Shown in pieces: positions 8,454 to 10,988 of a DNA stretch of 25,086 nt. The first letter of the stretch is position 1. Each line of letters starts with the position of its first letter. Position numbers and translations under genes: made by a program. The notes beneath the pieces were generated by a model. It was given only the letters and a program-made list of their open reading frames with translations. It was not told where the DNA came from and ran no database searches. The stretch is from positions 1 to 25,086 of IMG/VR virus record IMGVR_UViG_3300030103_003423. One strand, written 5' to 3'. Source of the stretch: a virus.

Positions 8454-8971
8454 AAAAATTCTTAACTTTGATTTTACTGGCATTTCCAACAGCTAGTTTT
8501 GCAGACATCACTCATTCTATCCAATCTGTAGCGTCAGTCTCAACAGTCGCAGCTTCAGCTACATCAGAAAGAATCGCAGCTTCAATTAGTGTAGCTGGTA
8601 CGAATGTAACACCAAAAGCAAACGATACGGCTGGTTTAATAGGTTCATTAGATTTAGCGGATAATGGTATCACTAACGGTGTCCCAACTGTGGATTACGA
8701 CACTAGCTTTAACGTAGTCAATACTGGTGATGCGTTCTCAGTATCGGAAACTTATTTACAAGCGGATAGTACAAGTACTACAGCAGCGACAGTTGCAAAT
8801 GGTGTTGCTGCCTTGCCTCTTTTAGGGTCATATACGGTTGTGTCTGGTGGAGATCCTGGTTCTGTTGCTATCACGCTAGATAGTGGACAAGGTTTAACTG
8901 TAAATCTATCTGATATGGGTGCTGGTACAACTGCAACGCTCCAATCAACAATCACACTTGGCTTGGATTGA
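8450..8971 (+). CDS. Exported Ser/Thr/Ala-rich protein
   Basis: This 173-aa protein has a typical Sec signal peptide (MKKFLTLILLAFPTASFA, cleavage expected after residue 18). The mature part is rich in Ala, Ser, Thr, Val and Gly, with few charges and no Cys, which suggests an extended beta-rich envelope protein or structural decoration. It is coupled by ATGA overlaps to the membrane protein before it and the exported protein after it, so the three are likely made together at the cell envelope late in infection. I recall comparable genes in marine cyanophage genomes. The function is unknown. Confidence 0.65.
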   Translation: MKKFLTLILLAFPTASFADITHSIQSVASVSTVAASATSERIAASISVAGTNVTPKANDTAGLIGSLDLADNGITNGVPTVDYDTSFNVVNTGDAFSVSETYLQADSTSTTAATVANGVAALPLLGSYTVVSGGDPGSVAITLDSGQGLTVNLSDMGAGTTATLQSTITLGLD

Positions 8972-9396
8972 TGAGATGGTTATTGCTTCTGTTTATAGCT
9001 TTTCATAGTTCGTATGCACAGGCTACCACTCCTAGATTCAGTGCTAATCAAATGCAATCTACAAGCAAAAGTGTTTCTACTATCAATGAAACTATTGTTA
9101 CTGAAAACTACAGGACAGGTTATAGCTACAGTGTTTCTGGAACGAATATCCGTGTTAAGGAAGGCTCTGTCATATCACCTGATGCCACATATACTACAAG
9201 TCAGAATACAGGAAAGGTTAGCTTTCAATGGGTGACACCAGATCTACCTACCAAACCTCAGTGGGAGATGATTCCAGGCTCTTCAGACTTTTCAATAATG
9301 GAAAACTTTCTCGCTCCAGGACTAGACGCAGTTTCAATCATTACAAGAAATCAAACTATAGAAACTGTGCAAGACTCTGTAACGCTATTTCAATAG
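8968..9396 (+). CDS. Exported protein of unknown function
   Basis: This 142-aa protein has a signal peptide (MRWLLLLFIAFHSSYA) followed by a Thr/Ser-rich domain with motifs such as ENYRTGYSYSVSGTNI and a C-terminal IETVQDSVTLFQ. It is coupled by ATGA to the preceding gene. Its last 169 bases also encode the N-terminal extension of the next protein in another frame (-1 relative), a long overlap that is unusual here. It is probably part of the same envelope-acting set. The start is well supported because the signal peptide begins directly at the ATG. Confidence 0.65.
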   Translation: MMRWLLLLFIAFHSSYAQATTPRFSANQMQSTSKSVSTINETIVTENYRTGYSYSVSGTNIRVKEGSVISPDATYTTSQNTGKVSFQWVTPDLPTKPQWEMIPGSSDFSIMENFLAPGLDAVSIITRNQTIETVQDSVTLFQ

Positions 9397-10004
9397 CTTT
9401 ACTATGTTCTACACCTGTATATGCAAACACCACAATAAGCTCACCTAGCAGTTCTTCACAGGGCACAGTTATTAATAATGGCTATCAAACGATAAATGGA
9501 AACTTCCCAACTCATAGATTTTCAAACGGAATACAATGTCAGTTACCAACATTGGCTTTCACTCCTTTTGTTACTAAGGGAGAAGGGTATAACACTCCAA
9601 GAATTACTACATCACGAACCAATATATATGACACTGCAACGGACAGCGAAACAGGCCAGTTGCTTAATCCAGGGAAAATTTTATATGTCGCAGAACAGGA
9701 AAGAATAGATCAGACGAACCATAACTTATCTTATGGGGCGACTATAAGTTTACAGGTTCCATTAGGTAAAAGGTTTAACAGTGAATGTCTGAAGGCTGCA
9801 CAGGCTTATAGAAAGACGCAGGAGTTTATGTTAGAAGCCAAGCGTTTAGAGGTTAATCTTAATCGTGCCAAGGTATGTGGTGCTATGTTGAGGGAGGGTA
9901 TTAAGTTTGTAGGAGATGATGCTATATCTTGTAGAAATATCGTTCTTACTACAATTCCAGATCAGATATTACCGCATACGCACGAAATAAAGACAAAAAA
10001 ATAA
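9228..10004 (+). CDS. Exported protein with long out-of-frame overlap
   Basis: This 258-aa protein starts at ATG 9228, which has GGAAAGG about 10 bases upstream, and runs to TAA at 10002-10004. The first 169 bases lie inside the preceding gene and give a very basic stretch. Then follows a signal-like segment (AISIALLCSTPVYA, cleavage near residue 66). The mature domain contains FSNGIQCQLPTLAFTPF and a helical C-terminal part with three cysteines (NSECLKAAQAY, AKVCGAML, ISCRNIV). No in-frame ATG, GTG or TTG lies closer to the signal segment, so either the long overlap is real or a -1 ribosomal frameshift joins the two frames. It ends exactly where the structured block 10000-10273 begins. Confidence 0.6.
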   Translation: MGDTRSTYQTSVGDDSRLFRLFNNGKLSRSRTRRSFNHYKKSNYRNCARLCNAISIALLCSTPVYANTTISSPSSSSQGTVINNGYQTINGNFPTHRFSNGIQCQLPTLAFTPFVTKGEGYNTPRITTSRTNIYDTATDSETGQLLNPGKILYVAEQERIDQTNHNLSYGATISLQVPLGKRFNSECLKAAQAYRKTQEFMLEAKRLEVNLNRAKVCGAMLREGIKFVGDDAISCRNIVLTTIPDQILPHTHEIKTKK

Positions 10005-10273
10005 GCACTGGTCCTGGGCTTCACGTCCACTTTTTCCAGTGGGGGCTTTCAGGTTGCAATGCTTATTAATAATCATCAACCCTGAACTCGCTACCCATAC
10101 AACGGCATGGAGGTTTACAGGTAAGTGATGATTAAAAAGCAACTGACGCTCTGACAGTGAGGAGGTGGAACTTAACCCACTCTTTATCAGGTCTGGTTGC
10201 TTAACAAGGGATAATAGAAGGGCAGTGGATCGTGGCACACGCAATGCTTCCGAACATACCTTACTCTCCTTGT
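10000..10273 (+). ncRNA. Candidate structured RNA: four tandem complex hairpins
   Basis: Four hairpins follow each other with 1-2 base linkers. H1: AATAAGCA (10000-10007) with TGCTTATT (10060-10067), inner CCTG/CAGG (10013-10016, 10050-10053), GGC/GCT, apical CCACT/AGTGG. H2: TAATCATCA (10070-10078) with TGATGATTA (10126-10134), inner CCTG/CAGG (10081-10084, 10118-10121), AAC/GTT, apical CCAT/ATGG. H3: AAGCAA (10137-10142) with TTGCTT (10197-10202), inner CTGA/TCAG. H4: ACAAGG (10204-10209) with CCTTGT (10268-10273), inner GAAG/CTTC and CGTG/CACG. H1 and H2 share identical loop lengths (7-nt left, 2-nt right, 2-nt bulge) with compensatory changes. G-U pairs (10017-10047, 10210-10267) favour the plus strand. 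Confidence 0.6.
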
Positions 10274-10297
10274 GTTATTTATTATATACAAAATTAT

Positions 10298-10329
10298 GGG
10301 CAAGTCAACGAACCTTGTTTTTCTTGCCC
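10298..10329 (-). terminator. Hairpin across the stop of the 10305 gene
   Basis: GGGCAAG (10298-10304) and CTTGCCC (10323-10329) are perfect complements around an 18-base loop that includes the stop codon of the minus-strand gene. On the minus strand ATAATTTTG follows, only a weak T run. It could help end transcription converging on the structured block, but as a terminator it is weak. Confidence 0.3.
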
Positions 10330-10988
10330 TTGAATAGATTAGCAACACGTTTTACAACTTGCTTGGTTAATGGCTTTACAACCGCAAGAAGGAGAGGAAC
10401 AGTTGCAGCCACACCTGCAATAAGAGCAGTAGACACAGTAACACTAGCACTTGGAATAAATTGATCGACCCAAGGGACTTCTTCCCATACCGCATTGCAA
10501 GATCCGTCCAATAATCCACGCTCATATTTTAACAAACGCTCCAACCTTAACTCATTACGCCAATCTCCCTTCCTATATGGTGCGTTTTTAGGTGGACATA
10601 ATGGATAAAACTCTTCTGCTTTTTCTTCCTTTCTAGGTGGCACAAACACACTGTTCAGTTTTATGCCTGATGAATATTGTGATGAGCTTTCTGTTTCTAT
10701 CGTGTCATTTGGATCATAAACAATAGATCTGATCTTCTGTTTTTCTGCCTTTGGTGCAGTAGTTTTCTCCTCTTCAACAGGTGCAGTAGCAGTTATCGGC
10801 CCTTGAGGACAGGTTGCATATTGCTTACGGTTATAAAAAACTATTGTTGGATTTCGTGTTATCTTAATATCTCTATCAACTAAATCACAGGCAGGTTGCA
10901 CACCTGTTAAAACAAATTCAGTGACAAAAGGAACAGAAGGAATATCAACAGTTGGTATCTTTATCTCTGGTACTTTAATCGTTGGCAT
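10305..10988 (-). CDS. Membrane-anchored proline-rich protein, unknown
   Basis: This 227-aa protein starts with a Pro/Ile/Val repeat-like stretch (MPTIKVPEIKIPTVDIPSVP), continues with a central soluble region containing four or five Cys (PACDLV, YATCPQG, YPLCPP, GSCNAV), and has a single strong hydrophobic segment near residues 182-203 (VSTALIAGVAATVPLLLAVV). A short very basic tail follows (KRVANLFKGKKNKVR), consistent with a C-terminal inner-membrane anchor. Its start lies inside the end of the zinc-ribbon gene (14-base overlap), so it belongs to the minus-strand chain 11357-10305. No family is recognised. Confidence 0.6.
   Translation of the reverse strand: MPTIKVPEIKIPTVDIPSVPFVTEFVLTGVQPACDLVDRDIKITRNPTIVFYNRKQYATCPQGPITATAPVEEEKTTAPKAEKQKIRSIVYDPNDTIETESSSQYSSGIKLNSVFVPPRKEEKAEEFYPLCPPKNAPYRKGDWRNELRLERLLKYERGLLDGSCNAVWEEVPWVDQFIPSASVTVSTALIAGVAATVPLLLAVVKPLTKQVVKRVANLFKGKKNKVR

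Follow-up and report, generated by a model that had tools for sequence, protein, structure and literature searches.

The stretch of DNA analysed here (the window: 25,086 nt, positions 1-25,086 of IMG/VR record IMGVR_UViG_3300030103_003423) contains four adjacent compound hairpins at about 10000-10273, which probably belong to an array of exchangeable small structured RNAs under the control of a promoter, with a predicted transcript from the minus strand. At the level of sequence comparison, homologues from other phages establish the structure of these hairpins, their modular nature, their exchange, their fixed orientation, their minus-strand polarity and the conservation of a promoter-like sequence beside them.

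The window and its flanking genes

The window comes from an uncultured tailed phage, an ocean virus whose hosts are probably photosynthetic bacteria. For its lambda-like tail tip gene the nearest complete isolates are the Prochlorococcus siphophages MED4-117 and MED4-184/P-HS2 (41-42% identity), and a cyanophage outer-membrane-like protein is also encoded in the window. Part of the DNA in another module-bearing IMG/VR record (L405, 41,291 bases) is shared with Marine virus AG-345-A17, which was derived from a single cell (81% over 28% of the query), and with MED4-117 (73%), a possible link to a host.

The hairpins occupy the junction of two convergent genes belonging to families with no assigned function. 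The plus-strand gene (9228-10004, phrog_848 family) ends in a TAA stop codon that forms the first bases of the H1 module, and the minus-strand gene (10305-10988, phrog_570 family) is the last of the minus-strand tail-gene cluster. The two open reading frames are separated by 300 nt (10005-10304) rather than by the 274 nt given in the initial annotation. The phrog_848-family gene also overlaps a DUF6322 gene (8968-9396) by about 170 nt in a different frame; MED4-117 and T4-like cyanophages have a comparable annotated overlap.

Structure and covariation of the hairpins

The presence of four adjacent compound hairpins, proposed initially from the window alone, is borne out by folding of the whole region, with z values of -2.2 on the plus strand and -3.2 on the minus strand. 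Read on the plus strand the modules have the order A-B-C-D, and all four are assigned to the minus strand. H1 (10002-10065, with an outer stem extending to 10000-10069) and H2 (10070-10134) are the type A and type B modules of one family, AB; model R1 finds them with 75.7 and 71.5 bits, respectively, and both show covariation. H3 (10137-10203) is a module of family C/K with the outer stem AAGCAAC/GTTGCTT, and H4 (10204-10277) is a family D module whose outer stem ACAAGG/CCTTGT pairs 10204-10209 with 10268-10273. Membership of H1 and H2 in one family agrees with the common architecture and paired changes that had been noticed in them, and the paired change GGC/GCT versus AAC/GTT recurs over 20 homologues (GC in 15, AU in 5). 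To treat the four tandem hairpins as one RNA class was too narrow, however: the hairpins are real, but they fall into three families and form a shuffled array whose modules are exchanged horizontally.

On the minus strand 96.5% of cells in the AB alignment (19-20 sequences) are paired, compared to 90.7% on the plus strand, and 11 of the 21 pairs show two-sided changes. The covariation value of 0.390 compares with 0.188 after shuffling, none of 500 shuffles reached as high a value, and slid controls were paired in only 26-45% of cells. The compensatory changes thus go beyond both the shuffled and the slid controls, as is expected of a conserved structured RNA. The apical stem of this family has six pairs on the minus strand, and in many members its cap is GAAA or CAAC. 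The inner helices of C/K are 97.6% paired, with two-sided changes in 10 of 12 pairs, a count limited to the inner helices because MAFFT misaligned the outer stem of the K modules. For family D the consensus fold comes from 29 sequences and covariation is weaker than in the other families. Unpaired core positions are conserved and inner helices covary. Covariation across homologues, which the initial annotation had named as decisive, is strong, and this comparative evidence shows that the four hairpins exist and that their structures are conserved.

A conserved protein frame had been named as the finding that would overturn an RNA reading. Members of one module family are 64, 65, 67, 68, 69 and 70 nt long, and since they differ in length by 1-6 nt, a conserved reading frame is ruled out. 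A competing pairing, CACTGG/CCAGTG, does exist in the window as had been suggested, but is confined to that copy, the other family members having CATCGG or similar.

Strand polarity

The initial annotation favoured transcription of the plus strand and cited the G-U pair at 10017-10047. The A-type members do conserve this pair, but the remaining polarity evidence favours the minus strand. Read on the minus strand, the AB family has 28 G-U versus 2 A-C pairs, and the D family 65 G-U versus 5 A-C, although the structure of the latter was itself predicted on the minus strand. When strand-neutral pairs of all families are read on the plus strand, A-C outnumbers G-T by 22 to 4, and the union of pairs gives 45 to 13 (p = 3e-5, which is indicative only, as the cells are not independent events); both counts point to the minus strand. 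The consensus folding energies on minus and plus are -21.0 versus -14.5 for AB, -20.7 versus -8.1 for C/K and -22.0 versus -13.0 for G; in alignment folding most families are more stable on minus, with plus slightly better in C, E and N. Taken together, G-U polarity and consensus folding energies favour the minus strand, as do the position of the promoter and the U-run described below, and the plus-strand assignment was accordingly given up.

Predicted transcription unit

A predicted sigma-70 promoter lies on the minus strand at 10281-10308, with the -35 box TTGACT at 10308-10303, a 16-nt spacer and the -10 box TATAAT at 10286-10281, so that 11 of 12 positions match the E. coli-type consensus; it ends 7 nt before the H4 stem. 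Scored by consensus matches with a threshold of at least 9, a promoter-like sequence on the minus strand is found in 82% of 49 distinct junction arrays, compared to 8% for shuffled sequence and 0% for the plus direction, and in 74% of 138 distinct arrays, compared to 6% of shuffles; in these 138 the distance between the -10 box and the nearest end of the array is mostly 1-8 nt. In many relatives the convergent gene shares its final codons (..LTKKKDKVE*) with the promoter-like sequence, and coding may explain part of the conservation of this sequence, which is also present in 57% of the module-less junctions. In the window-like group and a number of further contexts the -10 box lies outside coding sequence, yet it remains directly next to the array. 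A hairpin also occupies the corresponding junction of the isolates MED4-117 and MED4-184; that of MED4-117 comes after TTGACT-16-TAGAAT.

After H1 the minus strand carries a terminator-like run (TTATTTTTTTG, with seven U; 9995-10001, minus strand) that falls within Lys codons of the plus-strand gene. Among the arrays the 13 nt of minus strand that follow the distal module hold a mean of 8.05 T, compared to 5.16 after inner modules, and U-runs of at least 5 occur in 34% of arrays compared to 8% of shuffles. Some T7-like loci have a run of 8 or 9 T after the distal module on the same strand. From the positions of the promoter and the U-run we infer an RNA of about 280 nt (9995-10275, minus strand): the host-type sigma-70 promoter would start it at the edge of H4, and it would pass through H4, H3, H2 and H1 and end at the U-run, at about 9995. 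Such a transcript would presumably be processed, and its modules would act in trans on their ligands.

Module families and arrays

Homologues of the junction were collected from IMG/VR contigs by means of both flanking proteins; the records surveyed are mostly genome fragments. Junction content proved very variable, consisting of overlapping genes, a short hairpin, a canonical terminator or one to five compound hairpins. These hairpins are discrete modules with sharp ends, present in 56 of the 180 distinct junctions with 106 copies in total. Wider pattern scans of viral contigs brought the total to 220 arrays and 368 module copies. Of the arrays 156 are distinct, there are 67 family orders, and not one of the 220 arrays is of mixed orientation. 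The module families were set up by hand (AB, C/K/J, D, I, E, G/M, N, O, P, Q, S, T, U and others).

The arrays are found mostly at one convergent gene junction. The D pattern matched in 45 viral contigs and the C/K pattern in 109, and of these 154 matches 140 lie at the phrog_848/phrog_570 junction, 5 near contig ends and 9 elsewhere. The last include one chance match of the C pattern inside a gene (L386), one at what is apparently the same junction (L369), one at another intergenic site (L337) and six in T7-like phages, whose modules follow an exonuclease-like gene or separate two genes taken to encode the scaffolding protein and the major capsid protein. The S family was seen in one further gene context (L416). 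Restriction to a single locus is thus contradicted by the same modules at other junctions of T7-like phages, and what we observe is a strong preference, not a rule. Matches to the AB pattern were due to chance in 15 of 21 cases, lying in unrelated sequence, and searches of whole records with the AB model returned no copies beyond the arrays.

Several further features were seen in these junctions. On two T7-like contigs (L325, 2638-2918, and L321) the modules lie between the presumed scaffolding and major capsid genes, and there the minus, functional strand has the sense of the genes. Two modules are oversized, a K-type module of 146 nt (L032, 3803-3948) and an E-type module of 103 nt (L002, 3861-3963); in both the extra sequence is inside a loop, as if one element had been inserted into another. 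A hairpin of about 30 nt with the conserved loop ACAAGCTACGGGTATCCACTTGT directly follows the stop codon of the plus-strand gene in many records (L026, L107, L162, L197 and others). Many arrays have it at their distal end, and elsewhere it is the sole element of the junction; it may be a minimal module or a terminator.

Exchange of modules between phages

The same module is 93-100% identical across phages whose 240-nt upstream flanks are 60-67% identical, against a median of 66% for random pairs and about 61% for shuffled sequence. In one case (L034 and L141) the first module is identical over 65 nt and the flanks are 65% and 58% identical. As the flanks of near-identical modules are no more alike than those of random pairs, the modules move independently of them. 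One outer stem may also enclose different cores, since N and Q both occur with TACTGG..CCAATA and with ACAAAGG..CCTTTGT. The reverse, one core closed by different stems, was also seen, and the outer stems of E and E2 differ. This suggests that cores and stems are exchanged separately, by recombination inside modules. In the model we propose, each hairpin of the window is an exchangeable small-RNA module of about 60-75 nt made up of a closing outer stem and a family-specific core, and the slot gains, loses and reorders modules of more than 12 families, passed between distantly related marine phages.

Comparison with known systems

The search of the window against Rfam 15 at the gathering cut-off gave no matches, in keeping with the earlier remark that the hairpins matched no familiar RNA class by sequence. 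Weak snoRNA matches below the cut-off (E 0.6-9) were set aside as chance, and ARAGORN found no tRNA or tmRNA in the window. None of the isolate phages searched carried the modules. The exact core of the E family is absent from a cellular genome collection of 84,980 species, where a protein scan returned only three metagenome-assembled contigs. Arrays of this kind were not described in the literature, which is weak evidence as coverage was limited to open-access papers. As far as these searches reach (among cellular genomes, for one core), we thus found no family, isolate phage or paper to which such module arrays belong, and the initial description of a candidate new phage structured RNA gains from this, from the covariation between homologues and from the variation in length within a family.

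Phage tRNA gene arrays are clusters of different small structured RNAs that vary between relatives and are co-expressed, but the window has no tRNA, and the module families, lengths and closing stems are unlike tRNA. In T4-type phages, Arbiol et al. 2010 reportedly described small mobile promoter/stem-loop cassettes that are shuffled from one phage to another in intergenic gaps; they are said to have read them as regulatory, with simple terminators between many genes. The arrays reported here differ from such cassettes: their RNA cores are complex and covary, stand in tandem and for the most part lie at one junction. In function the closest precedent comes from phage PhiTE, whose pseudo-ToxI repeats mimic the type III antitoxin ToxI and neutralise a host toxin, at a locus that changes by unit expansion and by recombination with outside copies (PMC3475682). 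In both cases small structured RNAs are arranged in tandem in a phage intergenic region, and the number of units changes. ToxI units, however, are near-identical 36-nt pseudoknots of one family, whereas the modules here are 57-110-nt hairpins or junctions of many unrelated families that have no Rfam match to ToxI; near-identical tandem pseudoknots of the ToxI type were not found.

Alternative explanations

Could the hairpins simply be bidirectional terminators or stabilisers of the mRNA 3' ends of both convergent genes, with their internal sequence irrelevant? The convergent position of the genes, the seven U after H1 on the minus strand and the canonical terminator hairpin with a T-run in the corresponding gap of some relatives all fit such a role. 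It leaves unexplained why unpaired core positions are conserved while inner helices covary and why up to five modules stand in tandem; a fixed orientation in 220 arrays would be needless for a bidirectional terminator, and promoter-like sequence faces the array. We therefore regard this explanation as unlikely. Less likely still, in our estimation, is the case of selfish DNA hairpins moved by a recombinase, such as integron attC sites, REP elements or the ends of IS200/IS605, in which any RNA is incidental. Sharp ends, uniform orientation, transfer independent of the flanks and a preferred site are what such elements would show, but the cores are three-way-junction-like and internally structured, unlike attC and REP, and promoter-like sequence and U-runs are present. 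Moreover, of 21 records, often fragments, only one encodes the Phage_integrase domain expected of an IntI-type attC system and none a Y1 transposase above the cut-off, as REP or IS200/IS605 elements would require, though a host enzyme could act in trans.

A structured RNA of the plus strand, for example a 3' untranslated element of the gene at 9228-10004, would account for the start of the modules at the stop codon of that gene, the conserved G-U pair and the slightly better plus-strand folding of the C, E and N families. With polarity at 45:13 and 22:4 in favour of minus, and promoter-like sequence on the minus strand only (82% versus 0%), we hold it to be very improbable. The poorest candidate is an RNA-guide array such as the TIGR stem-loop array. 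TIGR arrays are likewise tandem hairpins with variable palindromic stems and occur in phages (PMC12045711), but the Nop-domain Tas protein is encoded in none of the 21 records, in a search that included positive controls, and the cores, which should be the variable guides, are here the conserved part.

Implications

What the exchangeable small RNAs of the array might do can be addressed by analogy. Because pseudo-ToxI of PhiTE is the nearest functional precedent, we rank first the possibility that the modules are decoys or antitoxin-like ligands for a host protein, for example a defence nuclease or a toxin, and so form a swappable counter-defence set; this is a tentative reading. Ranked second, and a little more doubtful, is that they are RNAs which stabilise or regulate phage transcripts. 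If the modules prove to be antitoxin mimics, the system would be a novel form of an already known kind. We lean towards a kind of viral locus that has not been described: marine phages would use a slot driven by a promoter to accumulate, rearrange and exchange with one another small structured RNAs of many unrelated families, with cores and closing stems exchanged separately. It would be a modular RNA toolbox, probably for counter-defence or host takeover. The proposal can be tested directly in the cultured Prochlorococcus phages MED4-117 and MED4-184/P-HS2, which have promoter-like sequence and a hairpin at the corresponding junction.

If this is true, more than 12 families of small structured RNA would be added to those of ocean viruses, and viral evolution would include a mode, for which we found no description, in which whole RNA modules are traded horizontally and shuffled within an expression slot of their own. 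As swappable loci of phages often concern conflict with the host, each module may point to a host target.
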